DNA of 64,000 nt from Pseudomonas serboccidentalis. GTDB lineage: Bacteria > Pseudomonadota > Gammaproteobacteria > Pseudomonadales > Pseudomonadaceae. Below are positions 9,372-62,182 of the stretch, piece after piece; positions within the stretch are counted from its first letter, which is position 1; each line of letters begins with the position of its first letter. The notes beneath the pieces are model-generated. The model saw nothing but the letters and a program-made list of their open reading frames with translations. It was not told where the DNA came from and made no database searches. Position numbers and translations under genes: made by a program. The DNA lies in contig NZ_CP101655.1 in the NCBI RefSeq assembly GCF_028830055.1, positions 3,700,204-3,764,203 on the forward strand. The letters run 5' to 3'.

Positions 9372-10325
9372 TCAGGCCATACGCATTCGCCGCGCCTTCA
9401 ACCCGGCCATCAACGACGGCCCCAACGCCACCAGCACCGAACCCAGCACCACCAGCACTGCCCCGCCATAACCCAGGCCATTGATCTGCTCGGCGTGCAC
9501 GTATTCCGGCCACATCCACGCCGCCAGCGCCACCGCACCAAAGGTCACCAACGGGGTGATCGCCAACGTCGCACTGACCCGCGACGCCTCCCAATGCGCC
9601 AGCGCTTCGGCAAATGCGCCATAGGCAATCAACGTATTCATGCAGCACGCCAGCAGCAGCCAGCCCTGCAACGGGCTCAGCTCCAATGCCTCGAGCGGAT
9701 GCACCCACGGCGTCAGCAACAGCGCGCAGAACAGGTAGATCACCATCATCACCTGCAGCGAATTCCACACCGTGAGCAATTGCTTCTGGCCCAGCGCGTA
9801 AAAGGTCCAGACCGTCGAGGCCAACAGCACCAGCAACACGCCAGCGGTGTAGTCCGACAACGAGGTGAGCAGTTCGGCCAGACGCTGATTGAAGAACAGC
9901 ACAAAGCCGATCAGCAGCACCGCCAGGCCAATGCCCTGGCCGATGCTGAAGCGCTCCTTGAACACGAACAGGCTGGCGATCAGCAACATGATCGGTCCCA
10001 TCTGCACCACCAGTTGCGCGGTGCCGGGGCTGAGCAGGTTGAGGCCCATCAGGTACAGCACGTAGTTGCCGACCAGCCCGAGCACCGCCATCAACACCAG
10101 CCAGCCGCCCCGGGGTCCGAGCGCTTTACGGCTCGGCAGACGCTTGACCGACGCCAGATAAATGAACAGGCAACCGCCGGAGACCAACAGGCGAAACCAG
10201 GTCACCGTGATCGGGTCCATCACCTGCAACACCTGCTTGAGCTTGATCGGCAGGATGCCCCACAGGAAGGCCGTCAGCAGCGCCAGGAACAGACCGTAAA
10301 CCCAGCGACCGGATGAAATGTGCAT
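9372..10325 (-). CDS. DMT-superfamily (EamA) transporter
   Basis: About 317 residues with ten predicted transmembrane helices in two EamA repeats (RhaT/YdcZ-like drug/metabolite transporter). The ATG at 10325 has GGGG five bases upstream; the longer frame from a TTG at 10349 is less likely. These proteins usually export amino acids or small metabolites, but the substrate cannot be told. The gene stands alone, convergent with fumC. Confidence 0.85.
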   Translation of the reverse strand: MHISSGRWVYGLFLALLTAFLWGILPIKLKQVLQVMDPITVTWFRLLVSGGCLFIYLASVKRLPSRKALGPRGGWLVLMAVLGLVGNYVLYLMGLNLLSPGTAQLVVQMGPIMLLIASLFVFKERFSIGQGIGLAVLLIGFVLFFNQRLAELLTSLSDYTAGVLLVLLASTVWTFYALGQKQLLTVWNSLQVMMVIYLFCALLLTPWVHPLEALELSPLQGWLLLACCMNTLIAYGAFAEALAHWEASRVSATLAITPLVTFGAVALAAWMWPEYVHAEQINGLGYGGAVLVVLGSVLVALGPSLMAGLKARRMRMA

Positions 10326-37521: not shown

Positions 37522-38325
37522 TCAGACCTTCAAGCCAAGCTCCGCCGAGAGCCGGGCTGTGACCCCTTTGATCAGGGGGATCAGCTCGGCCATTTTTTCC
37601 AGCGGCATGTACGGCACGGTGCTGGCGATGCTGATCGCCGCCACAATGCGCTTGCTCGCATCGCGAATCGGCGCCGCCACGCAGCGGATCGACGGTTCGT
37701 TGTCTTCCAGATCGAACGCGTAGCCACCGGCCACGTACTCGGTCATGCGCTGCTCAAGCTGTTCCCACGACTGCTGGGGATGCTGCGGCCAGAACTGACT
37801 TTTCCCACCCGCCGGCAGGCTGATGTCGTACAGCCGCTGCCAATCCTGCGGCGCATCATCGAGCATCAAGGCCTTGCCGATCCCGGTGCGCGCCAGCGGC
37901 ATCCGATGGCCGACCCGCGAACGCATTTCCGGGCCATTACGCCCCGGATTCTTCAGCAGGTACAGAACCTCGTCACCTTCACGAATACCCAGATGCACGG
38001 TGTCGCCGGTCAGCGCCGACAACTCGTCCAGATACGGCCCGGCCAGGCTCACCAGCGGCAACTCTTCGCGCGCCTGAAACCCCAGCTCGATCAACTTGGG
38101 CCCCAGCAGATAGCCGATTTGCGGCACCACGCGCAGGTAGCGCTCGTCCACCAGGCAACTGGCCAGCCGATGGGTGGTGCTGCGCGTGGTGCCGATCAGC
38201 CGGGCGATCTCTTTCAGATCGCGGGCGCCACTGGCCACCGCCTGCACCACACCCAGTCCGCGAAGCAGCGTCTGCGTGCCGGTGGGTGCGGCGTCCTTGG
38301 TTTTTTCCGGGGCGTCTTCCTGCAT
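37522..38325 (-). CDS. IclR-family regulator of the galactonate genes
   Basis: A 267-residue regulator with an N-terminal winged helix (about 18-80; LKEIARLIGTTRSTTHRLASCL) and a C-terminal ligand domain (about 95-265). It is last in the dgoK-dgoA-dgoD-MFS direction and most likely binds the 17-bp inverted repeat found upstream of dgoK and again upstream of the SDR gene at 55765. IclR members may activate or repress; the site lies just upstream of a -35 box, which is typical of activators. Confidence 0.86.
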   Translation of the reverse strand: MQEDAPEKTKDAAPTGTQTLLRGLGVVQAVASGARDLKEIARLIGTTRSTTHRLASCLVDERYLRVVPQIGYLLGPKLIELGFQAREELPLVSLAGPYLDELSALTGDTVHLGIREGDEVLYLLKNPGRNGPEMRSRVGHRMPLARTGIGKALMLDDAPQDWQRLYDISLPAGGKSQFWPQHPQQSWEQLEQRMTEYVAGGYAFDLEDNEPSIRCVAAPIRDASKRIVAAISIASTVPYMPLEKMAELIPLIKGVTARLSAELGLKV

Positions 38326-38385: not shown

Positions 38386-39690
38386 CTACAACTCGATACG
38401 CTCGACCTTGCCCACCAGCAACACGTAGGACAATGCACCGACCAGCGCAAGCACCGCGATGTAGGTGATCGCCGGCGCGAACGAGTCACCGCTGGCGAGA
38501 AAACCGATGACGATCGGTGTGGCAATCGCCGACAGGTTGCCGATGAAGTTGAACACCCCGCCGGTCAGCCCCAACAACCGCGCCGGCGCCAGTGTCGACA
38601 CCAGCGACCAGGTGATCGACGCCAGCCCGTTGCCGAAAAACGCCAGCGCCAGGAAGGCAATCACCAGCGGCGTCGACTCAACAAAATTCGCGCCGATGAT
38701 CGAGGTGGAAATCAGCAGCCCGCCAATGATCGGCAACTTGCGCGCAAAGCCGACGCTGCAACCACGGCGAATCAGCAGGTCGGAAAAGAACCCCGAACAC
38801 AGCACGCCAATGAACGCGGCAAGGAACGGCAGCGACGCCAGCAGGCCGGACTTGATGAAGTCCATGCCGCGATATTTCACCAGGTAGGTCGGGAACCACG
38901 TCAGAAAAAACCACAGCGTCGAGTTCAGGCAGAACTGGCCGAGGTAGATGCCCCACAACTTGCGTTTGGTCAGGACGATACCCAGGTCGGTCCAACTGAA
39001 CGACGCCTTGGCCGTTTGCGCTTGAATGTCTACCAGCCCGCCACCCTCGCGGATCAGGTCGATCTCCGCATCGTTGGCGCCCTTGAAATCTCGCGGCTCG
39101 CGATACACCGCGTACCAGATCGCCGCCCAGACAATGCCCGCCGCGCCAGTGGCGACGAACACCATGTGCCAGCCGAACTCATGTTGCAGCCACGCCAGCA
39201 CCGGGGTCAGAAACGCCAGCCCGACAAATTGCCCGGAGGTGTAGAAACCAATCGCCGTGGCCCGCTCGCGCTCGGGAAACCAGGTGGTCACCACGCGGCT
39301 GTTGATCGGATAGGCTGGGGCTTCCAGCGCGCCGACCGCCATGCGCAGCACGAACAGTGCAATGAAACTCGCGGCAAAACCGAGCATCACCGTGGCCAGC
39401 GACCATAGCAGCAGCGCGACGCTGTAGAGAATGCGCGGTGGCACCCGGTCCACCAGCCAGCCGCCGGGGATCTGCATCGCGGCGTAGGTCCAGCCGAACG
39501 CGGAGAAAATCAGCCCGACGTGAACCGGATCGATGCCCAGTTCGCTGGTCAGCGCGGGTGCGGCAATCGACAGGTTGCTGCGGTCGAGGTAGTTGATGAC
39601 CACGGTGATGAACAACAACACCATGATGAAGAACCGCTTGCGGCTGGGCGTGACTAAAGACGCCTGCCCGGTGAGGGTTTGCGGTGGCAT
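38386..39690 (-). CDS. MFS transporter, galactonate/anion symporter-like
   Basis: A 434-residue major facilitator with 12 predicted helices, like the ACS family (DgoT, ExuT). The signature after helix 2 is visible as GWLVDRVPPRI, and the family pattern VVINYLDRSNLSIAAP is near the start. Its position between dgoD and the IclR gene suggests galactonate uptake. A REP element separates it from dgoD. Confidence 0.88.
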   Translation of the reverse strand: MPPQTLTGQASLVTPSRKRFFIMVLLFITVVINYLDRSNLSIAAPALTSELGIDPVHVGLIFSAFGWTYAAMQIPGGWLVDRVPPRILYSVALLLWSLATVMLGFAASFIALFVLRMAVGALEAPAYPINSRVVTTWFPERERATAIGFYTSGQFVGLAFLTPVLAWLQHEFGWHMVFVATGAAGIVWAAIWYAVYREPRDFKGANDAEIDLIREGGGLVDIQAQTAKASFSWTDLGIVLTKRKLWGIYLGQFCLNSTLWFFLTWFPTYLVKYRGMDFIKSGLLASLPFLAAFIGVLCSGFFSDLLIRRGCSVGFARKLPIIGGLLISTSIIGANFVESTPLVIAFLALAFFGNGLASITWSLVSTLAPARLLGLTGGVFNFIGNLSAIATPIVIGFLASGDSFAPAITYIAVLALVGALSYVLLVGKVERIEL

Positions 39691-39745: not shown

Positions 39746-39835
39746 CTGTAGGAGTGAGCCTGCTCGCGATAGCGTCCTGTCAGTCATAGACATGCCGGAT
39801 GTAAAAACCGAATCGCGAGCAGGCTCACTCCTACA
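39746..39835. repeat. Inverted REP pair, GCGAGCAGGCTCACTCC type
   Basis: Inverted copies between dgoD and the MFS gene inside the presumed operon, which could favour the catabolic genes over the transporter. Confidence 0.92.
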
Positions 39836-39862
39836 TTTGAATTGTGTTGAATCAGTAAGCAC

Positions 39863-41011
39863 TCACCACTCGGCAAAACTGCCATCGGCATGGCGCCAGA
39901 TCGGGTTGCGCCAGCGGTGGCCGACGGCGGCGCGCTCGATCACGTATTCCTCGTTGATCTCGATACCCAGCCCCGGCCCGTTCGGAATCTTCACGAAGCC
40001 CTGGTCGTAGTCGAACACCCGTGGATCCTTCACGTAGTCGAGCAAATCGTTGCTCTCGTTGTAATGGATGCCCAGGCTCTGCTCCTGGATAAACGCGTTG
40101 TAACAAGCCGCGTCGAGTTGCAAACACGCCGCCAGCGCAATCGGCCCCAGTGGGCAATGCAGCGCCAGCGCCACGTCGTAGGCTTCGGCCATGTTGGCGA
40201 TCTTGCGGGTTTCGGTGATGCCGCCGGCGTGGGAGGCATCCGGCTGGATGATGTCGACGTAGCCTTCGCTCAACACGCGTTTAAAGTCCCAACGCGAGAA
40301 CAGCCGCTCACCGAGGGCAATCGGCGTGCTCGTCAGCGGCGCCAGCTCTTTCAGCGCTTCGTAGTTTTCACTGAGCACCGGTTCTTCGATGAACATCAGT
40401 TTGTATGGGTCGAGTTCTTTCATCAGCACCTTGGCCATCGGCTTGTGCACCCGACCATGGAAGTCGACGCCGATACCGACGTTCGGCCCGACCGCATCAC
40501 GCACCGCAGCCACGTTGGCCAGGGCCAGATCGACTTTCTCAAAGGAGTCGAGGAACTGCAGCTCTTCGGTGCCGTTCATTTTCACCGCGGTAAAACCACG
40601 GCTCACCGCCTCTTTCGCCGCCCGTGCCGTATCGGCCGGACGGTCGCCACCGATCCACGAATACACACGGATCTTGTCACGCACCTGACCGCCGAGCAGA
40701 TCGCTGACCGACACACCGAGGGCCTTGCCCTTGATGTCCCACAGCGCCTGATCGATACCGGCCAGCGCACTCATGTGGATCGCGCCGCCGCGGTAGAAGC
40801 CGCCGCGGTACAACACGGTCCAGATGTCCTCGATGTTGCGTGGGTCTTTGCCGATCAGGTAGTCGGACAATTCCTCGACTGCAGCGGCGACGGTGTGGGC
40901 GCGGCCTTCGACCACAGGCTCGCCCCAACCGGTGACGCCTTCGTCGGTTTCGACCTTGAGGAAACACCAGCGCGGCGGGACGATGAAGGTGGTGAGTTTG
41001 GTGATTTTCAT
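39863..41011 (-). CDS. dgoD: D-galactonate dehydratase
   Basis: A 382-residue enolase-superfamily enzyme that converts D-galactonate to 2-keto-3-deoxygalactonate. The magnesium ligands and catalytic residues occupy the positions known from E. coli DgoD: D183 and H185 in GVDFHGR, E209 in FIEEP, E235 in LGERL, and the histidine in DASHAGG (about 285). Start at 41011 (MKITKLTTF) with a purine-rich AGAGAG upstream; the open frame continues upstream but into dgoA. Confidence 0.96.
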
Positions 41012-41073
41012 CTCTGCTCTCTTTTTGTAAATGCAGCTCTTATTAGATGCAGCGCACGCGGCGCCAAAAAGTC

Positions 41074-41694
41074 TTAGCGAAGCGCTTTCCAGGCGGCCAC
41101 GTAGGCCTTGGCGTTCACCGCCACTTGCTCCGGCGTCATGCCCGGCTTGAACAGACCGGAACCGAGCCCGAAACCTTTGACCCCGGCATCGATGAACACC
41201 TGCATGTTGTCCGGGGTGATGCCGCCGACCGGCGCCAGCACCGTCCCCGCTGGCAACACCGCGAGCCAGGCTTTGACGACCGCCGGGCCCATCTGCTCGG
41301 CCGGGAACAGCTTGAGAATGTCCGCGCCCTCCTCCAGCGCCGCGAAGGCTTCGGTCGGCGTGGCGACACCCGGCGACAGGTACAGCCCCGCCGCTTTCGC
41401 TGCGCGCAGCACTTTGGCGTCGCTGTGCGGCATGACAATCACCTGGCCGCCAGCCGCTTTCACCTGCTCGACCTGTTCCGGGGTCAGCACCGTGCCGGCA
41501 CCGATCAGACAATCGGCGGGCAAGGTCTGGCGCAGGATGCGGATACTTTCGTACGGTGAAGGGGAATTGAGCGGTACTTCGATGACGCGAAATCCGGCGG
41601 CATACAGGACTTCTCCGATAGCGGCGGCTTCCTGCGGATGCAGGCCACGCAGAATCGCGATCAGACCGTTTTGTGCCAGTGCTTGCTTGAGCAT
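41074..41694 (-). CDS. dgoA: 2-Dehydro-3-deoxy-6-phosphogalactonate aldolase
   Basis: A 206-residue class I KDPG/KDPGal aldolase that splits KDPGal into pyruvate and glyceraldehyde 3-phosphate. The Schiff-base lysine is K128 in LKLFPAE, and the general-base glutamate is in [10 protein letters not shown] (about 39). The size matches E. coli DgoA and, with the neighbours, distinguishes it from KDPG aldolase (Eda). It starts 19 bases after dgoK. Confidence 0.94.
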
Positions 41695-41713
41695 GTCAGG
41701 CCTCCAGTCAGGG

Positions 41714-42703
41714 TTAACGGGATGAGGAATCGAGCAGTCCGGCGGCCAGCGCCAGTTGCCACAGGCCACGCTCGGTGGCCTGCTCGGCCAGCGTCACGTT
41801 GGCGAAACCACAGGCCTCCAGCGCGCGGCTGTAGCGGGCGCAGAGTTGCGCGTTGCCGATGAGGATGATCGAGGGCAGATGCACGCTGTGGCGCCGACGC
41901 CGCTGCACGGTGGCAAGCGCCGCCAGTTCATGGCCGATCATCAGCCCGGACAGGTAATCCGCTTGCGCCGTCGGGGCCAGTTCGCCGGTCAGGCCCAAGG
42001 TGCGCGCACTGAACAGCGTGGAAAGCACACCGAGTTCGCCGTCCGTCGACAGCGCCACTTGCACGCCACGGTCAAAGGCCAGGCCATCGAATGCCGCCCC
42101 CGGTTGCTGGGTACGCCCGAGAATGCTGTGCTCACTGAGCACGGCGAACACTTCGCCGGTCATGAAGGTATCGAAATGAGTGATGCGGCCATCGACCACT
42201 TCCACCCATTTGGAATGGCTGCCCGGCAAGCCGATCAACAGGTCGCCGTCCGTCTCGGCCGGCAGGTTCTGCAGCACGCCGAGGACCTGGGTTTCTTCAC
42301 CGCGCATCACGTTCGGCAGGCGTGAACGCTGGATCACGCCCGGCACGATATGCACCCGCGTGCCGCGCAGACTGACCAGTGTTTGTAGGGAATTTCCGAG
42401 ATTGGCGACGTTCGCCGGTGTTTCGCAGTAGGCCGCTTCGCGCCAGCCCTGGGCGCTGCCGACCATGCCGCAGGCGATCACCGGCAGATCCGGCTGCGCA
42501 TCGAGCCAGTCGCCACACGCGTCTTCGAAGGCCAGTTCAAAACCGTCGGCGCATTCACGACCGTTGATGACTCGCGAGGTCTTGGGCAACTGCATGATCC
42601 CGGACGACAGCGCACGCTGCTCCAGCACCACCCCGCCCGCCGCGAGTTTGTAAGCACGTAATGAGGTCGTCCCCCAATCGAGCGCGATCAATTGCGCCTG
42701 CAT
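41714..42703 (-). CDS. dgoK: 2-Dehydro-3-deoxygalactonokinase
   Basis: A 329-residue sugar kinase of the DgoK family (phosphate motif LDWGTTSLRAY at the start; LIGLPGSHSKWVEV around 165). It phosphorylates KDGal for DgoA. It is the first gene of the dgo operon, with AGGTGAAG before the ATG and the operator-promoter at 42742-42801. Confidence 0.95.
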   Translation of the reverse strand: MQAQLIALDWGTTSLRAYKLAAGGVVLEQRALSSGIMQLPKTSRVINGRECADGFELAFEDACGDWLDAQPDLPVIACGMVGSAQGWREAAYCETPANVANLGNSLQTLVSLRGTRVHIVPGVIQRSRLPNVMRGEETQVLGVLQNLPAETDGDLLIGLPGSHSKWVEVVDGRITHFDTFMTGEVFAVLSEHSILGRTQQPGAAFDGLAFDRGVQVALSTDGELGVLSTLFSARTLGLTGELAPTAQADYLSGLMIGHELAALATVQRRRRHSVHLPSIILIGNAQLCARYSRALEACGFANVTLAEQATERGLWQLALAAGLLDSSSR

Positions 42704-42741
42704 CGCTTCACCTGTTTTGTTTTTGGCAGTGAGTGCGACGG

Positions 42742-42801
42742 ACTATAGACCTCTCAGACCGGAAATCTCAATATGTAATTTTGCATCCCATATTTTGGGA
42801 T
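42742..42801 (-). promoter_or_regulatory. dgoK promoter with 17-bp inverted-repeat operator
   Basis: On the minus strand TTGAGA (42766-42771) and TATAGT (42742-42747) are 18 bases apart. Just upstream lies the perfect inverted repeat ATCCCATATTTTGGGAT (42785-42801). A 38-base block (42764-42801) is identical except for one base to 56816-56853, and the translation-start region is also shared, so both promoters should answer to one regulator, probably the IclR protein at 37522. Confidence 0.82.
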
Positions 42802-44116: not shown

Positions 44117-44607
44117 TCTACAAACAGTTTTATGGATTCGGGTAAGTGGGAGCTGACCGTGTGGGTAAAGCCCTGTTCATTGGTAATGCCGTGCTCAAGA
44201 CGTCCATCACCTCGTTCGATTGCATAAGGATGGTTCGGGACAGGCTCGCCAGTCGCTTCATTTACCACTTGCAACTTGTCCGTAAAATGCACCGGCATCG
44301 GCAACAACCCGCTAAACGCCGCGCCTCCACCACTCTGGCCGATAATCACCGTCCCCGACCCACCGACCACGACATTGCCGTGACCTCCAGTGCTGTCGAG
44401 CGTGGCGGCGTTCAGGCCGTTGATGAATACGGTGCCGGAAACGGCGCCGGTGATCGGGCTGCCACAGGCCGATTTATCGGTCATGCGCGCGGCGGCGAGG
44501 CCGTCGAAGAAGACGTCGGGCGAGCCGGAAACAATCGGGTTGGTGCCATGCCCTGGCAATGGGCAGTCGGTCGGGTCGGTGACGCGTGCAGCGGGTTTAC
44601 CACTCAA
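44113..44607 (-). CDS. PAAR-domain spike protein with C-terminal extension
   Basis: A 164-residue protein. Residues 1-95 form a PAAR repeat domain (AARVTDPTDCPLPGHG, FFDGLAAARMTDKSACG, GGHGNVVVGGSGTVIIG) that sharpens the VgrG tip of a type VI secretion system and binds zinc. The tail (about 100-164) resembles the small extensions that dock effectors (VVNEATGEPVPNHPYAIERGDG). Both ends overlap neighbours by ATGA, so the three genes are translationally coupled. No vgrG or tss genes are in the window; it must use a machine encoded elsewhere. Confidence 0.88.
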   Translation of the reverse strand: MSGKPAARVTDPTDCPLPGHGTNPIVSGSPDVFFDGLAAARMTDKSACGSPITGAVSGTVFINGLNAATLDSTGGHGNVVVGGSGTVIIGQSGGGAAFSGLLPMPVHFTDKLQVVNEATGEPVPNHPYAIERGDGRLEHGITNEQGFTHTVSSHLPESIKLFVE

Positions 44608-51882: not shown

Positions 51883-51966
51883 GTACAAATTGATACCCGA
51901 AACGGGCGTGGGCGGGCAAGGAATATTTGGGGAAGATGACGAGAGGCCGGAGACTGGCGCGGTCTA

Positions 51967-52060
51967 CTGTAGGAGTGAGCCTGCTCGCGATGACGTCGAC
52001 ACATCCAGCATCGATGTGACTGAAAGAACGCTATCGCGAGCAGGCTCACCCCTACAGGGG
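51967..52060. repeat. Inverted REP pair, GCGAGCAGGCTCACTCC type
   Basis: Inverted copies between araH and the GntR gene. The 180-base gap holds otherwise only the GntR promoter region. Confidence 0.92.
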
Positions 52061-52067
52061 ATGCGGG

Positions 52068-53039
52068 TTACCGTTGTTTCAGGCGATCGATGACCACCGC
52101 CAACAGCAGAATCGAACCACGAATCACATACTGGTAGAACGTATCGATATTCTTCAGGTTCATCGCATTCTCGATGATCGCCAGTATCAACACCCCGGCA
52201 ATCACGTGCCGGATCATGCCGATCCCGCCGCTCAGCGACACCCCGCCCAGCACACACGCCGAGATCACGGTCAGTTCGAAACCCTGGCCGATCATCGGCT
52301 GCCCGGAGGTCATGCGCGAGGCGAGAATCACCCCGGCCAGTGCGCCGATCACGCCATGCACGGCGAAGATGATGATCTTGGTCCGGTCAACGTTGACCCC
52401 GGCGAGCAACGCCGCTTCCTGGTTGCCACCGATGGCCATGGTGTTGCGCCCGTAGGTGGTGTAGTTCAGCAGCCAGCCGAAGAACAGGAAACAGACGATG
52501 GTGATCAGGATCGGCACCGGCACGCCGAACAACTGGCCATTGCCAAAGACGAAGAACGATTCCTGCGACACGCCCACCGCTTTGCCGTTGGCAAAGATGT
52601 AGGCCAGGCCACGGACGATCTGCATCGTCGCCAGCGTGGTGATCAGCGCATTGACCCGCAGCTTGGCGATCACGATGCCGTTGATCAGCCCGACAATCAG
52701 GCCCATCACCAGCGCCGCGCTGACGCCGAGGAACACGCTGTTGGTGTCGCGCATCACCACCGCTGCGACCACCCCGGCGCAGGCGATCACCGAGCCCACC
52801 GACAAATCGAAATGCCCCGACGCCAGGCAGTACAACATGGTGCACGCGGCAATGCCGGTGGTGGAAATCGCCAGCCCCAACCCGCGCATGTTCAGCGGCG
52901 AAAGGAAGTTGTCGATCAGCAAGGTGCAGGCGACGAAGATGCCAATGGCCGCCAGCAGCATGACCCAGTCGTCGAGGAAGCGCCGCAGGTCCAGCGGTTT
53001 GCGGGGAGTCGGCAGCGCCTTGTTTTGGATGGTCATCAT
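52068..53039 (-). CDS. araH: Sugar ABC transporter permease (AraH-like)
   Basis: A 323-residue permease with about ten predicted transmembrane helices of the ribose/arabinose class (NINGIVIAKLRVNALITTLATM and GVSLSGGIGMIRHVIAGV). The ATG at 53039 has AGAGG six bases upstream. With AraG and AraF it forms the importer. Confidence 0.9.
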   Translation of the reverse strand: MMTIQNKALPTPRKPLDLRRFLDDWVMLLAAIGIFVACTLLIDNFLSPLNMRGLGLAISTTGIAACTMLYCLASGHFDLSVGSVIACAGVVAAVVMRDTNSVFLGVSAALVMGLIVGLINGIVIAKLRVNALITTLATMQIVRGLAYIFANGKAVGVSQESFFVFGNGQLFGVPVPILITIVCFLFFGWLLNYTTYGRNTMAIGGNQEAALLAGVNVDRTKIIIFAVHGVIGALAGVILASRMTSGQPMIGQGFELTVISACVLGGVSLSGGIGMIRHVIAGVLILAIIENAMNLKNIDTFYQYVIRGSILLLAVVIDRLKQR

Positions 53040-53048
53040 AGTCACCTC

Positions 53049-54590
53049 TCAGTTCGCCACGCCGTCAGCGCGATGGCGCGGCAAAGCCAGTTGCAGCAGG
53101 TTGGATTCATTGGCCTGGTCGCGGCTGACTTCGCCGCGCAGCGCGCCTTCGCAGAGCACCAGAATGCGGTCGGAAATGCCCATGACCTCCATGAGGTCGC
53201 TGGACACCACGATCACCGAAATGCCGTCGGCGGCCAGGTTATGGATGATCTGGTAGATCTCGGCCTTGGCACCGATGTCGATGCCACGGGTGGGTTCGTC
53301 GAGCAGCAGGACCTTCATCGGCATCGACAGCCAGCGACCGAGAATGGCCTTCTGCTGGTTGCCGCCGGAAAGGAATTTGATCTGTTGCCCGGCGTGCGGT
53401 GTTTTGACTTTCAGCGCCTTGATCTGCTTGTCGGCGTTGCCCTTCTCCCACAGCCCGCGCAGCAGACAACCGAAGCCGGAATGGGCGCCACGGGCACTGA
53501 TGTTGATGTTTTCGGCGACGCTGGCCAGCGGAATGATCCCCTCCTTTTTGCGGTCCTCGGGGCACAGCAGAATCCCGGCGGCAATCGCGTCACGCGGTGA
53601 GCGCAACTTCAGTTCATGGCCACGCAATTCCAGGCGTCCGGCGGTGTTGCGCTCAAGCCCGCTGAGCAGCCGGAACAACTCGGTGCGCCCGGCCCCGACC
53701 AGGCCGAACAGGCCGAGAATCTCGCCCTTGTGCGCCTCGAAACTCACCGGCTCGCGCAGGCCCGGGCCGAGCAAACCGTCGACCTTCAGCGCCACCGCGC
53801 CACGTGGGCGGCTGCGGTAATCGTAGATGTCCTGGATGTCGCGCCCGACCATGCAGGTCACCAGTTGATCGTGGGTCAGTTGGCTCATGTCGTCGAAGGT
53901 GCGCACGTAACGACCATCCTTGAACACCGTCACCGCGTCGCAGATACGGAACACTTCTTCCATGCGATGGGAAACGTAGAGCACCACTTTGCCCTCATCG
54001 CGCAAGCGACTGATGATCGCCATCAAGCGGTCGATCTCGCGGGCCGAGAGGCTGCTGGTCGGCTCATCAAAGGCGATCACATGCGCGCCACGAGACAGCG
54101 CCTTGGCGATTTCCACCAGTTGCCGCTGGCCGAGTGACAGGCGCCCGACCTTGGTCTGCGGATCGATTTCATCGGCCAGACCCTTGAGGCAAGCCAAGGC
54201 GTTCTGGCGCAGGGTGCCGCGATTGATCAGGCCGAAACTGGCCGGCAGATGGCCGAGAAACAGGTTCTCGGCCACGCTCATTTCCGGCACCAGATGCAGC
54301 TCCTGGTGAATCACCGCGACGCCGCTGCCGATGCTGTCGGCCGTCGACTTGAAGGCCATGGTCTGCTCGCCGATCTGCAACTCGCCGCTGCTCGGGATGT
54401 AGGCCCCGCCAAGGATTTTCAGCAGGGTCGATTTGCCGGCGCCGTTCTCGCCCATCAGGGCGTGGACCTGCCCCGGGTGGGCGACGAAGCTGATGGCGTC
54501 CAGCGCCTTCACCCCGGGAAAGGTCTTACCGATCCCGTTGAAGCGCAGGCTGCCGCCGCTGTTTTCATGTGTCTGTACTTGCGCGTGCAT
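53049..54590 (-). CDS. araG: Sugar ABC transporter ATPase, duplicated (AraG-like)
   Basis: A 513-residue twin-cassette ATPase. The first domain has Walker A GENGAGKST, signature LSLGQRQLVEI and Walker B VIAFDEPTSSL; the second has a divergent Walker A region (GLVGAGRTE) and signature LSGGNQQKAI, as in AraG and RbsA. The ATG at 54590 has GAGGTGA upstream. Between AraF and AraH in operon order. Confidence 0.93.
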   Translation of the reverse strand: MHAQVQTHENSGGSLRFNGIGKTFPGVKALDAISFVAHPGQVHALMGENGAGKSTLLKILGGAYIPSSGELQIGEQTMAFKSTADSIGSGVAVIHQELHLVPEMSVAENLFLGHLPASFGLINRGTLRQNALACLKGLADEIDPQTKVGRLSLGQRQLVEIAKALSRGAHVIAFDEPTSSLSAREIDRLMAIISRLRDEGKVVLYVSHRMEEVFRICDAVTVFKDGRYVRTFDDMSQLTHDQLVTCMVGRDIQDIYDYRSRPRGAVALKVDGLLGPGLREPVSFEAHKGEILGLFGLVGAGRTELFRLLSGLERNTAGRLELRGHELKLRSPRDAIAAGILLCPEDRKKEGIIPLASVAENINISARGAHSGFGCLLRGLWEKGNADKQIKALKVKTPHAGQQIKFLSGGNQQKAILGRWLSMPMKVLLLDEPTRGIDIGAKAEIYQIIHNLAADGISVIVVSSDLMEVMGISDRILVLCEGALRGEVSRDQANESNLLQLALPRHRADGVAN

Positions 54591-54623
54591 CTGAGTCACC
54601 TCTTCACACCGATCGAGCAGCCA

Positions 54624-55628
54624 TCAATTCCACAGGCCGATTTTTTCCAGCTCTTGCTTGAAGTTCTCGCGGGTGATCAGGGTGACGTCGTCCATCGCCG
54701 TGTACTTCGGCGGCTCTTTGCCGGTAGTGACCCACTCGTACATCATCTCGGCTGTCTTGTAGCCTTCGATGTGCGGGCTCGGCAGCATCGAACCGAAGAA
54801 ACCGCTGTTGGGCTTTTTCAGCTCGCCGATGGCGTCGGTGCCGTTGATGCCGATGCCGATCACGTTGGCCGCCGCGAACCCGGCGGCTTCAGTGGCGCGT
54901 ACGCCGCCGAGCACGGTGTTGTCGTTCATGCCGCCGATGATCAGGTTTTTCGCCGCACTCGGCAGCTTGACCAGCGCCGAGTTGGTGGCGTCCATGCTGC
55001 CCGGCACGTCCAGGGTTTTCAGTGCAGCGAAGAGGATGTGATCCTTCGGCAGGCCGGCGTCTTCCAGGGATTTGACCGAACCGTCGGTGCGCTTCTTGCC
55101 GGTGTCGAGTTCGTTGTAGGTGTTGACCACCGCGTAGGTGTCTTTCCAGTCCCAATTGCGTTTCTTCGCTTCGGCGACCATGGCGTTGCCCTGCTTCTGG
55201 CCGACTTCGAACGCAGCCATGCCGAGGTACGGCACGTCTTCCATGAACTTGCCGTTGGCGTCGACAAAGCGGTCGTCCACGGCAATCACTTTGAGGTCAT
55301 TGAGTTTGGCCTTGGCCATGATGGCCGGGCCGAGGGACACGTCCGGGGGGCAGATCACGAAGCCCTTGGCACCGTTGGCGGCGAGGCTGTCGATGGCCGA
55401 GAGGGTTTTCTCCCCGTCCGGCACGGCGATCTTGATCAGTTCGAAGCCTTTGTCCTTGGCGGCTTTTTCAGCGAAAGCCCACTCGGTCTGGAACCACGGC
55501 TCTTCAGCCTGTTTGACCAGAAAACCGATTTTCACGGTGTCGGCAGCCAGCAGCGAGCTGCTCAGACTGAACGCGGTGACCGCCAGCGCGGCACTGCACA
55601 GGGTACGAATCCCGAAACGACGTTTCAT
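54624..55628 (-). CDS. araF: L-arabinose/D-galactose-type periplasmic binding protein (AraF-like)
   Basis: A 334-residue exported type-I periplasmic binding protein (signal peptide ending SSSLLAADT). The mature protein follows E. coli AraF closely: IGFLVKQAEEPWFQTEWAF, IAVPDGEKTLSAIDSLAANG, GMNDNTVLGGVRATE, GIGINGTDAIGEL. E. coli AraF binds L-arabinose, D-fucose and D-galactose, which fits a pathway using either sugar. AAGGAG precedes the ATG. A 13-bp inverted repeat lies 80-92 bases upstream. Confidence 0.94.
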   Translation of the reverse strand: MKRRFGIRTLCSAALAVTAFSLSSSLLAADTVKIGFLVKQAEEPWFQTEWAFAEKAAKDKGFELIKIAVPDGEKTLSAIDSLAANGAKGFVICPPDVSLGPAIMAKAKLNDLKVIAVDDRFVDANGKFMEDVPYLGMAAFEVGQKQGNAMVAEAKKRNWDWKDTYAVVNTYNELDTGKKRTDGSVKSLEDAGLPKDHILFAALKTLDVPGSMDATNSALVKLPSAAKNLIIGGMNDNTVLGGVRATEAAGFAAANVIGIGINGTDAIGELKKPNSGFFGSMLPSPHIEGYKTAEMMYEWVTTGKEPPKYTAMDDVTLITRENFKQELEKIGLWN

Positions 55629-55707: not shown

Positions 55708-55720
55708 TCATATCGTATGA
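55708..55720. promoter_or_regulatory. Candidate operator upstream of araF
   Basis: TCATA-TCG-TATGA, a perfect inverted repeat between the SDR stop and the araF start. It shares the TCAT/ATGA half-sites with the palindrome upstream of the FCD-GntR gene, though with different spacing. Confidence 0.5.
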
Positions 55721-55764
55721 TGATTGGATTTCAGGCGAATTCATCCACCGCAAATCTCATCTGC

Positions 55765-56583
55765 TCAGTCGTGGTACATCACCGAGCGGCCACCATCGAT
55801 GGTGATGCACGAGGCGTTGATGAACGGCGCTTCATCACTGGCCAGGAACACTGCGGTCATCGCCACTTCGATCGGCTGGCCGATGCGTTTTGGCGGGTGC
55901 AGGTCAAACGCGCGCTGGCGCTCGGCGTGCGGGTCGGCAAAGCCGTTCCAGTAATCGACGTTCAGCTGCGTCTCGATGTAGCCCGGAGCGATGGCGTTGA
56001 CCCGAATGCCCTTGGGCGCGTACTCGATGCCCAGCGCCCGGGTCAGTCCGAGCAGGCCGTGTTTGGCCACCGGATACGGGAAGCAGCCGGGAATGATGTG
56101 GCTGGAATGGGTCGAGGCGATGTTGATGATGCTGCCGATACCTTGCTCGATCATCTGCGGCAGCACGGCTTTGCAGCCATACCAGGCGCCGTCCAGGTCG
56201 ATGGCGAAGCAGCGGCGCCAATCTTCTTCGGTCATTTGCAGCGGGTCGCGGAACACGTTGACCCCCGCGCAGTTGACCAGCACGTCGATCCGCCCGTGCA
56301 ACTCGATCGCCAGTTTGGCCATGGCGTGCAGGTCTTGTTGACGCGACACGTCGGCCTTGATCGCCTGTACGTCGGCGCCCTGCTCGCGCCAGTGGGCGGC
56401 GACCTTCTCGACTTTCTCCGCCTGAATATCGCTGATCACCAATTTGGCCTGCTGCGAGGCGAAGGAGGCGACGATGGCCTCGCCGATGCCCTGGGCGGCG
56501 CCGGTCAGCAGCACGACTTTGTTTTTCAGACGCTCGCCCTTCGGCGGTGCGGGCACCGGCGGCAAGGAAAGAGGTTCAGCCAT
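55765..56583 (-). CDS. SDR sugar 1-dehydrogenase, probable D-galactose/L-arabinose dehydrogenase
   Basis: A 272-residue classical SDR. Cofactor motif TGAAQGIGEA near residue 27, NCAGVN near 109, catalytic Ser-Tyr-Lys in NIASTHSS and YPVAKHG; the aspartate in VISDIQ favours NAD. Its place between the lactonase and the AraFGH importer gives it the first oxidation step, aldose to lactone. The activity is inferred from context; the SDR class does include bacterial galactose dehydrogenases. It starts five bases after a 50-codon leader ORF, and CAGGAG lies just upstream. Confidence 0.84.
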   Translation of the reverse strand: MAEPLSLPPVPAPPKGERLKNKVVLLTGAAQGIGEAIVASFASQQAKLVISDIQAEKVEKVAAHWREQGADVQAIKADVSRQQDLHAMAKLAIELHGRIDVLVNCAGVNVFRDPLQMTEEDWRRCFAIDLDGAWYGCKAVLPQMIEQGIGSIINIASTHSSHIIPGCFPYPVAKHGLLGLTRALGIEYAPKGIRVNAIAPGYIETQLNVDYWNGFADPHAERQRAFDLHPPKRIGQPIEVAMTAVFLASDEAPFINASCITIDGGRSVMYHD

Positions 56584-56586
56584 GGG

Positions 56587-56739
56587 TCAGGACTCCTGTT
56601 CGTAAGCACAAAAAAACCGGGCATCTGACGATGTCCGGTCTGGAAGACTGTGAAAGCAAAACAGGCAGGCACGGCGAGCGACGCCGGGCCGTTGCGAGAC
56701 GCTGACTCCGCTGGGGAGTGCGATAGAGATTCGCTGCAT
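56587..56739 (-). CDS. 50-codon leader ORF overlapping a terminator
   Basis: ATG at 56739 has the same translation start region as dgoK (AAAACAGGTGAAG, then ATGCAG), but after three codons the sequence diverges. It encodes 50 residues (MQRISIALPSG... ending CAYEQES) with no known domain. Its last codons overlap the SDR ribosome binding site (CAGGAGTCCTGA), and an intrinsic terminator lies inside it. It may be a regulatory leader peptide or the residue of a deleted dgoK-like gene. Confidence 0.5.
   Translation of the reverse strand: MQRISIALPSGVSVSQRPGVARRACLFCFHSLPDRTSSDARFFCAYEQES
56610..56639 (-). terminator. Terminator/attenuator in the leader of the SDR-araFGH genes
   Basis: On the minus strand ACCGGACATC-GTCA-GATGCCCGGT (one internal mismatch) is followed by seven T. 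It is inside the leader ORF, about 27 bases before the SDR start, so transcripts from the upstream promoter would stop here unless anti-terminated. Confidence 0.8.
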
Positions 56740-56793
56740 CACTTCACCTGTTTTGTTCTTTTTAAGTGTGAGTGCGTGTTACTGCTGGAGCCG

Positions 56794-56853
56794 ACTATAA
56801 ACCCGACCGCCAAATAATCTCAATATATAATTTTGCATCCCATATTTTGGGAT
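56794..56853 (-). promoter_or_regulatory. Second copy of the dgoK promoter-operator module
   Basis: TTGAGA (56818-56823), 18-base spacer and TATAGT (56794-56799) on the minus strand, with the inverted repeat ATCCCATATTTTGGGAT at 56837-56853. The 38-base block 56816-56853 differs from the dgoK copy at one base. The inverted repeat ends exactly where the lactonase coding region stops. Confidence 0.82.
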
Positions 56854-57729
56854 TCAACCCGCAAACCGAGTGCAGAGCTTGCCCGGCACATCGACCCGCA
56901 TCGACAGCACCGCACCATCCAGTGGATGGTGGTGCGGACTCTGCGCGCTGGTGATGTACAGGGTTTTCAAATCGTCACCGCCGAACACGCAACTGGTCGG
57001 GCGGCTGACTGGCAGATCGATCTTGCGCTCGACCTTGCCGTCCGGTGTCAGACGCAGCAGGCAACTGCCGTCCCAACGGGCGTTCCACACATAACCTTCG
57101 GCGTCCATCGCCGAACCATCAGGCCCGCCGTTCTGATCAGGGCCATACCAGGGGCTGCCCACATCAAGGTTGCCGTCGGCGTGAATAAAATAGCGATACA
57201 GCGTGTCGTCGAGACTGTCGCCGAACAGGACCGTGGTGCCGTCATCACTCCACAACAGCGTATTGGGAATCCCCAGGCCGCGCAGCAAGGGCGTGACGCG
57301 CTGGTCTGGATCAACGCGGAACAAGCCACCGGAACGGCGCACGATCGGCAGGTCTTCGCCGTTGTCGCCGATGTTGTTTTGCATGGTGCCGAGCCACAGT
57401 CGCCCTTGGACGTCGCAGCGTGCTTCGTTGGGTCGATTGCCCGGTTGCGGGTCGGCGATGCAGAACAACTTCAAACGTGGCTCAAGGCCCGGGGAATCGA
57501 GGTCCAGTCGATAGACGCCGCTGCTCAGAGTCACCAGCGCATCGCCACTGGCGCACGGAATGAACGCGGAAACGTGCTCGGGCATCTGCCAGATCTGCAC
57601 GTTGTTGCCGATCAGCCGCAGTGCCTGTCTGCCGGCGATATCGACCCAATACAGCGCTTGGGTGGGGGCGTCCCAGAAAGGGCCTTCACCGAGTTTGGCG
57701 CGGTGTTGGGTTACGGCGGTCCACGTCAT
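56854..57729 (-). CDS. SMP-30/gluconolactonase-family sugar lactonase
   Basis: A 291-residue beta-propeller lactonase. The family's divalent-metal region is visible as GEGPFWDAPTQALYWVDI (Glu near 15), RPNEARCDVQGRLWLGTM (Asn near 100) and NTLLWSDDGTTVLFGDSLD (near 155). It should hydrolyse galactono- or arabinono-lactone, step two of the pathway. Transcribed between the FCD-GntR and SDR genes. The stop abuts the operator used by the next gene. Confidence 0.87.
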   Translation of the reverse strand: MTWTAVTQHRAKLGEGPFWDAPTQALYWVDIAGRQALRLIGNNVQIWQMPEHVSAFIPCASGDALVTLSSGVYRLDLDSPGLEPRLKLFCIADPQPGNRPNEARCDVQGRLWLGTMQNNIGDNGEDLPIVRRSGGLFRVDPDQRVTPLLRGLGIPNTLLWSDDGTTVLFGDSLDDTLYRYFIHADGNLDVGSPWYGPDQNGGPDGSAMDAEGYVWNARWDGSCLLRLTPDGKVERKIDLPVSRPTSCVFGGDDLKTLYITSAQSPHHHPLDGAVLSMRVDVPGKLCTRFAG

Positions 57730-57756
57730 GTTGAATCCTTCATGTTGTTGTTTTAA

Positions 57757-57850
57757 CTGTAGGCGTGAGCTTGCTCGCGATGGCGGTGGTTCAGTCAGCG
57801 TTGCTTTTTCCGGTACGACGCCATCGCGAGCAGGCTCACGCCTACAGGGG
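57757..57850. repeat. Inverted REP pair, GCGAGCAGGCTCACGCC variant
   Basis: Inverted copies with a GCGTGAG core variant, between the FCD-GntR gene and the lactonase gene. Confidence 0.92.
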
Positions 57851-57861
57851 GATCTGTGTTG

Positions 57862-58578
57862 TCAGCTGGCTTTCTTGTCGGCCATCACCTGCGGGTAAAA
57901 GCGTTTGATTGCCAGGTCGGCATTGTCGATCAGGGTCACGCACGCCCACACCCCACGCGCAGCATCCCGGGCAGCGATGGCGTCGGCCATGTCTTTGTGA
58001 ATCGGCAAGGTGCGGCGCAATTCGTCGGGGTCGGCGGCGGAGACTTCAAACGACACCGCGAGCAAGGCACCGAGGGCCGGGACCATTTGCTCGATGAACT
58101 GATTGTGGCTGGCCGCCAGAATGCATTCGTGGAAGGTCTGGTCGGCGCGGTTGTAATCGATGCCGCTGTCGACGGCCCGCTCCAGCGCGTTGTAGGCCAG
58201 CTGCACGGCCTCGATCTGCTCCAGGCTGGCGCGTTCGCAGGCCCAGCGCACGGCCATCGGTTCGATGGTACGCCGCAGGTCGAGCAGGTCGTCGACGAAG
58301 TTTTCCGGCAGACCGTTGCGCGACAGCCAGCCCACGACTTGCGGATCGAACAGATTCCAGCGCCGCACTGGCAACACCCGGGTACCGACTTTCGGCCCGA
58401 CTTCGAGCATGCCTTTGGCGACGAGGGTCTTGATCGCTTCGCGGATCACGGTACGGCTGACGCCGAGCTGCTGGCCCAGATCCGCCTCGACCTTGATCGC
58501 CTGCCCCGGCTTGACCTGCCCGGCAGCAATCCAGCTGCCCAGCCAATCGACCGTTGACGCATGAAAGCTGCTGGACAT
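57862..58578 (-). CDS. GntR-family regulator with FCD domain (DgoR-like)
   Basis: A 238-residue FadR-subfamily regulator: winged helix (about 10-75; IKVEADLGQQLGVSRTVIREAIKTL) and an all-helical FCD ligand domain (about 90-230), with metal-binding histidines likely in the FHECILAASHN and LPIHKDMADAI segments. It heads the lactonase-SDR-importer block and resembles DgoR, which represses galactonate genes. An ATCATATGAT palindrome 42 bases upstream of its start may be its own operator. Confidence 0.87.
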   Translation of the reverse strand: MSSSFHASTVDWLGSWIAAGQVKPGQAIKVEADLGQQLGVSRTVIREAIKTLVAKGMLEVGPKVGTRVLPVRRWNLFDPQVVGWLSRNGLPENFVDDLLDLRRTIEPMAVRWACERASLEQIEAVQLAYNALERAVDSGIDYNRADQTFHECILAASHNQFIEQMVPALGALLAVSFEVSAADPDELRRTLPIHKDMADAIAARDAARGVWACVTLIDNADLAIKRFYPQVMADKKAS

Positions 58579-58619
58579 GAAGACCTCAAAGCGGTTCGCG
58601 ATGGGTGTTCACGCTAATG

Positions 58620-58629
58620 ATCATATGAT
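58620..58629. promoter_or_regulatory. Candidate FCD-GntR auto-operator
   Basis: ATCATATGAT palindrome inside TAATGATCATATGATTA, 42 bases upstream of the GntR start. Short, AT-rich and only one site, so low confidence. Confidence 0.4.
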
Positions 58630-58650
58630 TAACAGTCAACACAAAATCAA

Positions 58651-58740
58651 TGCAGGAGCGAGCCTGCTCGCGATAGCGGTGTGTCAGTCGACATTAATGC
58701 TACTGAACCATCGTGATCACGAGCAGCCTCACTCCTGCAG
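58651..58740. repeat. Degenerate inverted REP pair, GCGAGCAGGCTCACTCC type
   Basis: The right arm has several changes (GATCACGAGCAGCCTCACTCC), so this copy is decaying. Confidence 0.8.
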
Positions 58741-58754
58741 TTTTTTGTTTTGGA

Positions 58755-61850: not shown

Positions 61851-62065
61851 AAGAAAAGGTCTGTAGGGGTCAAAATTCGAAGCCGCGTATTATGCCTAAC
61901 TTGCACAAAAATGCACGGATCATCCGACCATATCTGTGTTTCTTGTTCATTTTGCGAACGCTGGGAGTGTAATGAGAACTCAACTGAAGCGCACGTATTC
62001 CAAATTTGTTTAAAAACCCCGACCGCTCAACTGGACTGAACGCCAGACTGATCAATACTTGAACT

Positions 62066-62182
62066 GTCGGGCGGCATCTCCCCCAAGTGTCGCGCCGATA
62101 AAGGTACCAAGGGACCGCGTGCCTTTGTTTTACTCCTAATGGTCTTAACCCGGATTCACCCCCCAGAACCCGGGTTTTTTTT
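62066..62182 (+). ncRNA. rgsA: Probable RgsA (P16) small RNA
   Basis: The 470-base gap between the TetR gene and tatD ends a plus-strand unit with no ORF: an AATACT-type -10 near 62054-62059 (of a kind used by RpoS), then about 115 bases, then an intrinsic terminator (AACCCGG at 62147-62153 pairing with CCGGGTT at 62170-62176, followed by eight T). In P. aeruginosa RgsA is encoded at this place (between PA2958 and PA2959). Internal sequence looks structured. The start is approximate. The remainder of the gap (61851-62050) holds only the TetR promoter region. Confidence 0.72.
62147..62182 (+). terminator. Terminator of the RgsA-type small RNA
   Basis: AACCCGG/CCGGGTT stem with a 16-nt loop and an eight-T run. 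Confidence 0.85.

Follow-up and report, generated by a model that had tools for sequence, protein, structure and literature searches.

A twin promoter-operator module at the dgoK and SDR-araFGH blocks of Pseudomonas serboccidentalis and its probable role in an IclR-controlled galactose (De Ley-Doudoroff) regulon

The operators of group 1 IclR-family regulators follow the motif GKTYCRYW3-4RYGRAMC or its subgroups, one of which is WTTYCRYW3RYGRAAW (PMC8222616). These proteins often bind tandem sites separated by 18-22 nt from centre to centre, and an additional half-site is used by PcaU, PobR and HmgR (PMC8222616). The De Ley-Doudoroff route of galactose catabolism has also been described, and the pathway was built in P. 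putida from cloned genes (PMC6927180); the words "regulator" and "IclR" are absent from the main text of that paper. Two further descriptions concern Crc and Hfq: their recognition motif, AANAANAA, lies near the translation start (PMC10617552), and in the cbrX-cbrA system of P. putida Hfq/Crc was proposed to act on a small ORF whose coupling with the following gene was demonstrated (PMC6591292). In the literature searched, comprising few subscription journals and main papers rather than supplements, no report of the IclR regulator considered here was found.

The window, i.e., the whole stretch of 64,000 nucleotides that was analysed, contains at 42764-42801 a 38-base block that recurs with one mismatch at 56816-56853, both copies being on the minus strand and 14 kb apart. 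Each copy carries the same 17-bp palindromic operator, ATCCCATATTTTGGGAT, identical at 42785-42801 (before dgoK) and 56837-56853 (before the SDR-araFGH block) and conserved in relatives. The 17-mer was found at no other place of the window with up to three mismatches (0.07 matches expected from shuffles), and the whole genome (5,997,322 bases, approximately 6.0 Mb) holds only these two exact copies; at three mismatches, two further places appeared, which is no better than the reversed-pattern control. Sites at many unrelated genes were thus not found, and the co-regulation proposed in the first-pass annotation was not refuted by the genome-wide scan. In both copies, the operator is followed on the minus strand by TTGAGA (42766-42771 and 56818-56823), an 18-base spacer and TATAGT (42742-42747 and 56794-56799), giving promoters at 42742-42771 and 56794-56823 that are also conserved. 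Both hexamers agree at five of six positions with the textbook −35 and −10 consensus. The repeated block and the promoter had been described correctly by the first-pass annotation. Its shared translation start stood only in part: a start-region repeat of 27 nt, 93% identical in the alignment, is common to both modules and its ATG is the start of dgoK (42703), but the second ATG, at 56739, is not that of the SDR gene.

Compared with the published IclR operators, the 17-mer agrees at 14 of 17 positions with the WTTYCRYW3RYGRAAW subgroup and at only 12 of 17 with the main group 1 consensus. It may be a 17-bp palindrome of the WTT-11-AAW kind, as in the PcaU, PobR and HmgR regulons (PMC8222616), although its arms carry CCC/GGG instead of the published TYC/GRA and the genes concerned belong to a galactose/galactonate pathway, unlike those of the three named regulons. 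The location of the regulator gene beside a target operon is shared with the IclR regulons having tandem or three-box sites (PMC8222616).

Downstream of the first module, all on the minus strand, are dgoK, encoding 2-keto-3-deoxygalactonokinase (41714-42703; PF05035), dgoA for KDPGal aldolase (41074-41694; PF01081 on the longer ORF 41074-41769, the start at 41694 being our choice), dgoD for galactonate dehydratase (39863-41011; PF13378 and PF02746 on the longer ORF 39863-41512, the start at 41011 again being our choice), a dgoT-like MFS transporter gene (38386-39690; PF07690) and the IclR gene (37522-38325). The second module precedes, also on the minus strand, the gene of an SDR-family dehydrogenase (55765-56583; PF13561 and NF005469) and the sugar ABC transporter genes araF, araG and araH (52068-55628; AraG and AraH above NCBIfam cut-offs, with a periplasmic binding protein in the AraF position). 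Just upstream of it lie the genes of an SMP-30/gluconolactonase-type lactonase (SGL; 56854-57729, minus strand; PF08450) and of an FCD-GntR regulator (57862-58578, minus strand; PF07729 and PF00392). By family matches, and with substrates that are predicted, the De Ley-Doudoroff set of kinase, aldolase, dehydratase, dehydrogenase and lactonase is complete. Together with the transporters, these genes would account for uptake, oxidation, opening of the lactone and the breakdown of galactonate; for the SDR and AraFGH we infer galactose as the sugar. The pathway assembled in P. putida had the same components (DgoK, DgoA, DgoD, a sugar dehydrogenase, a lactonase and a transporter), with the difference that its genes were cloned into that host (PMC6927180). 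The first-pass annotation had spoken of two distant catabolic blocks tied by the module; the tie is strongly supported, and we prefer to regard the blocks as halves of a single galactose pathway. The same module most likely stands at both of them because these halves are switched together by a single IclR regulator.

Our preferred reading, to which we give a probability of about 0.78 with all its steps (second box, inducer, activation and Crc) included, is that the two modules are the control points of one IclR-run De Ley-Doudoroff regulon. One half would serve uptake and oxidation (AraFGH and SDR) and the other galactonate breakdown (DgoK, DgoA, DgoD and DgoT). The 17-bp palindrome would be bound by the IclR protein, which as a tetramer would probably also contact a weaker box 20 bp downstream on the −35. 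Its inducer would probably be galactonate or a 2-keto-3-deoxy acid; together with this inducer, the protein would most likely assist RNA polymerase at the promoter, in the manner of the IclR-family activators PcaU and PobR. Finally, at the A-rich stretch before both start codons, Crc/Hfq would probably hold translation down while a better carbon source is present. The two-promoter regulon, wide in the genus, is real and very probably under IclR control, and it adds to IclR regulons of a known kind. Galactose use in Pseudomonas is thereby assigned its operator, its regulator and a regulon of two operons, and a promoter responsive to galactose or galactonate suggests itself as a tool for engineering strains.

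The comparison with relatives carries much of this reading. The operator was detected at up to one mismatch in 60 of 199 Pseudomonas genomes, while the reversed-pattern control gave 0 matches in the 199. The 67 loci fetched around these sites contain 68 of them, and 67 are at dgoK or at the SGL-SDR block. The comparison as a whole strongly supports the direct co-regulation suggested at first. The remaining site (9993-10009 of locus L039, genome G085) belongs to a similar full module, with TTGAGG and TATGGT, which stands before an MFS-SDR pair and opposite a chemoreceptor gene; this pair is a possible third member of the regulon.

In addition, the promoter core was searched within 350 bases of each gene, the operator not being used. 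It preceded dgoK in 62 of 63 loci and the SDR gene in 65 of 69, most of these loci having been fetched for their operator (one more SDR locus was clipped at its end, and genome G116 is represented by two loci). The operator lies at a fixed place relative to the core, with 0-4 mismatches of 12. A fairer sample is given by 40 loci fetched by their IclR gene, one from each of 40 genomes, out of the 66 in which IclR is present and a site at up to one mismatch is lacking; here the core was found before dgoK in 28 of 29 cases and before the SDR gene in 12 of 16. Among 75 named IclR-fetched loci that could be scored (3 more were clipped), 74 had the core before dgoK. The missed dgoK locus (L213) has the operator present and the −35 changed. 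The four SDR misses are fused operons in which the two blocks are joined, in the order dgoKAD-SGL-SDR-araFGH-IclR (L209 and L210) or dgoKADT-SDR-araFGH-IclR (L214 and L216), after one module, that of dgoK; the second copy of the module is absent from them. The geometry of the modules is equally fixed: the core spacer is of 18 bases in 130 of 130 (17-19 being allowed) and the distance from operator to core is constant in 126 of 127. In the SDR promoters of L195-L198, where the IclR gene is behind araH, the promoter-distal half of the operator is degraded and the near half and the −35 block are intact. The degraded distal half in several genomes of this arrangement counts against our preferred explanation.

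A second box is proposed from the consensus of 124 distinct modules, a table in which the TTGAGA and most TATAGT columns are invariant by selection. Conservation is strong in the nine bases preceding TTGAGA. When the consensus is compared with the 17-mer, the best match falls at shift 20 (11/17); with the operator in its other orientation this match is 8/17, tied with shift 15, and the box is in this respect weak, which counts against our preferred explanation. The putative degenerate boxes so defined (42765-42781 and 56817-56833, minus strand) overlap the −35. Their distance of 20 bp is within the 18-22 nt reported for IclR regulons, from whose tandem sites they differ in being degenerate and placed on the −35 (PMC8222616).

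The first-pass annotation had judged the position of the operator to fit an activator. The place of the operator upstream of the −35 does fit this view, but the proposed degenerate box on the −35 could serve a repressor as well and leaves repression open; if IclR control is accepted, we lean towards activation. The best surviving alternative, with an appreciable though minority chance of being right, keeps the same IclR regulon and makes the protein a repressor which, on the operator and the −35 box, would block RNA polymerase until released by a pathway intermediate. The IclR family does contain repressors (PMC8222616). Repression would be consistent with the overlap of the proposed second box and the −35, and hexamers as close to the consensus as those of both promoters would suit it too. 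Against it, in every copy the centre of the better box lies upstream of the −35, and the invariable spacer is of 18 bases and not 17, which suits a promoter needing help.

The regulator itself was examined by domain content and by the distribution of its gene. The IclR protein has both the helix-turn-helix and the C-terminal domains of the family (PF09339 and PF01614, above cut-off) and shares 100% identity with its counterpart in P. koreensis DSM 16610. Orthologues (E ≤1e-100) were found in 125 of the 199 genomes. Of these 125 genomes, 59 carry the operator, compared with 1 of the 74 genomes without an orthologue (Fisher p = 4e-14, uncorrected for relatedness). Seen from the operator, 59 of the 60 genomes have an intact IclR orthologue and the other (G080) has a broken copy. 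In the dgo locus of this genome (L085), the IclR copy beside dgoT is in pieces with an internal stop, and the dgoK operator is retained. No site at up to one mismatch was present in 66 of the 125 genomes, a point against our preferred explanation; 40 of the 66 were inspected through the IclR-fetched loci described above. In these 40 loci the gene before IclR is dgoT (21), araH (13), dgoD (2) or another (4), and in the named loci it is dgoT in 78 of 80. Depending on the lineage, the IclR gene closes either the dgo operon or the araFGH operon; in genome G017 it comes after araH, with 1.6 Mb between it and the module at dgoK.

Co-regulation of the pathway by the IclR protein is well supported because of the conservation of the operator, the fused-operon misses, the linkage of the IclR gene to both operons, its co-occurrence with the operator and the absence of the FCD protein from operator-bearing genomes. 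The early choice of the adjacent IclR protein as best candidate is in this way strongly reinforced. An improbable alternative is that a third, unlinked regulator binds the 17-mer and that the IclR gene is a passenger. Some room for it is given by the comparison with the operator distribution, which covered the IclR and FCD-GntR regulators; on the other side, the IclR gene moves between both target operons and is kept together with the operator.

The FCD-GntR protein had also been named as a candidate binder of the 17-mer, and its gene adjoins the second block in this genome. We consider this assignment very improbable and rejected it on gene presence and on a different motif. Its orthologue is missing in 8 of 15 operator-bearing genomes (best identity 32-35%), these 15 being our choice from the 60, mostly with IclR not beside the operator. 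A different shared motif is found as AATCATCATACGAT before araF (55712-55725) and as AATCATATGATCATT before the FCD-GntR gene (58616-58630). With a pattern that was chosen after seeing the window, the motif was found before araF in 47 of 50 FCD-bearing loci versus 4 of 26 others. Before the FCD gene itself the strict pattern was found in 24 of 51 cases, and three of the misses inspected show a AATCGTATGAT variant. The AATCATCATACGAT/AATCATATGATCATT motif looks like the own operator of the FCD protein. Since this separate motif stands before araF in FCD-bearing loci, araFGH probably answers to both regulators, IclR and FCD-GntR.

The two modules are alike in operator, promoter and start region alike, and copying may well be the origin of the module. 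A recent duplication lacking any regulatory role is nevertheless hardly credible and was rejected on the conservation pattern, as the module is kept in relatives whose dgoK is as low as 56% identical (L231), whereas its flanks are unconserved.

Concerning the Crc/Hfq step of the IclR regulon, the A-rich AANAANAA motif (PMC10617552) is present in both copies of the window on the minus strand, once before the dgoK start (42717-42724) and as two overlapping motifs in the SDR copy (56753-56763). These stretches fit Crc/Hfq sites. The motif was found in 46 of 46 SDR leaders of relatives scored and in 12 of 29 dgoK leaders, and in 18% and 4%, respectively, of shuffled segments. Its presence in only 12 of 29 dgoK leaders counts against our explanation.

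The SDR start (56583) is 156 nt beyond the shared ATG at 56739. From this ATG, a 50-codon upstream ORF (56587-56739, minus strand) ends 3 nt before the SDR start, and inside it there is a terminator-like hairpin followed by seven T (56610-56638, minus strand). The hairpin is the only exact match to its pattern in the genome, with a single one-mismatch place elsewhere, and the fold of the 211-nt leader is better than that of shuffled sequences by 3.4 sd. Rfam gave nothing at the SDR leader even with E up to 1. By eye, pairing of the hairpin loop with the tail into a pseudoknot could be made out in some species and not in others, and the idea was dropped.

Among relatives, the hairpin and a T-rich tract are present in 43 of 46 SDR leaders; in the other three (L071, L078 and L084) the ATG opens the SDR gene in frame, and leader L100, without a recognised start, was left out. 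In all 43 hairpin leaders the upstream ORF, of varying frame and length, stops in the interval from 3 nt before the first base of the SDR start to 16 nt past it (43/43 by reading the position table and 41/43 by an automated count, the difference being two leaders with a late-beginning protein match). The openness of this ORF is only mildly unusual: under base shuffling it is expected at a rate of 32% per leader, and the two remaining frames pass in 35/43 and 19/43, with sequences that are related and not independent. In the largest class, differences at codon positions 1, 2 and 3 number 1008, 875 and 1046. Being about even, they led us to reject a conserved leader peptide.

This arrangement resembles cbrX-cbrA in having a possible Hfq/Crc site before a small ORF that reaches the start of the next gene, and in that the reach, not the peptide sequence, would matter (PMC6591292). 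It differs from that system in the terminator-like hairpin inside the small ORF and the IclR operator upstream, and in that the coupling is here predicted from sequence. An unlikely though tenable reading, and the boldest one, makes the SDR leader a Crc-gated attenuator. Ribosomes on the 50-codon ORF would melt the hairpin and transcription and translation would pass into SDR-araFGH; with Crc/Hfq covering the A-rich site the ORF would be untranslated, the hairpin would form and the uptake operon would be off. Attenuation at the hairpin would go beyond the coupling of cbrX-cbrA and, if true, catabolite repression would act on transcription via the leader ORF, on top of the IclR switch. The locus offers a concrete case for whether Crc/Hfq acts through a leader ORF and a hairpin.

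Finally, REP-like inverted repeats (TGTAGG...GCGAGCAGGCTC) occupy the intergenic gaps at 51966-52060, 57756-57850, 58649-58743 and approximately 39750-39840, the last being the dgoD/dgoT gap, and the known Pseudomonas sRNAs P10 and RgsA are found in the window at 44513-44584 and 61981-62173 (Rfam).
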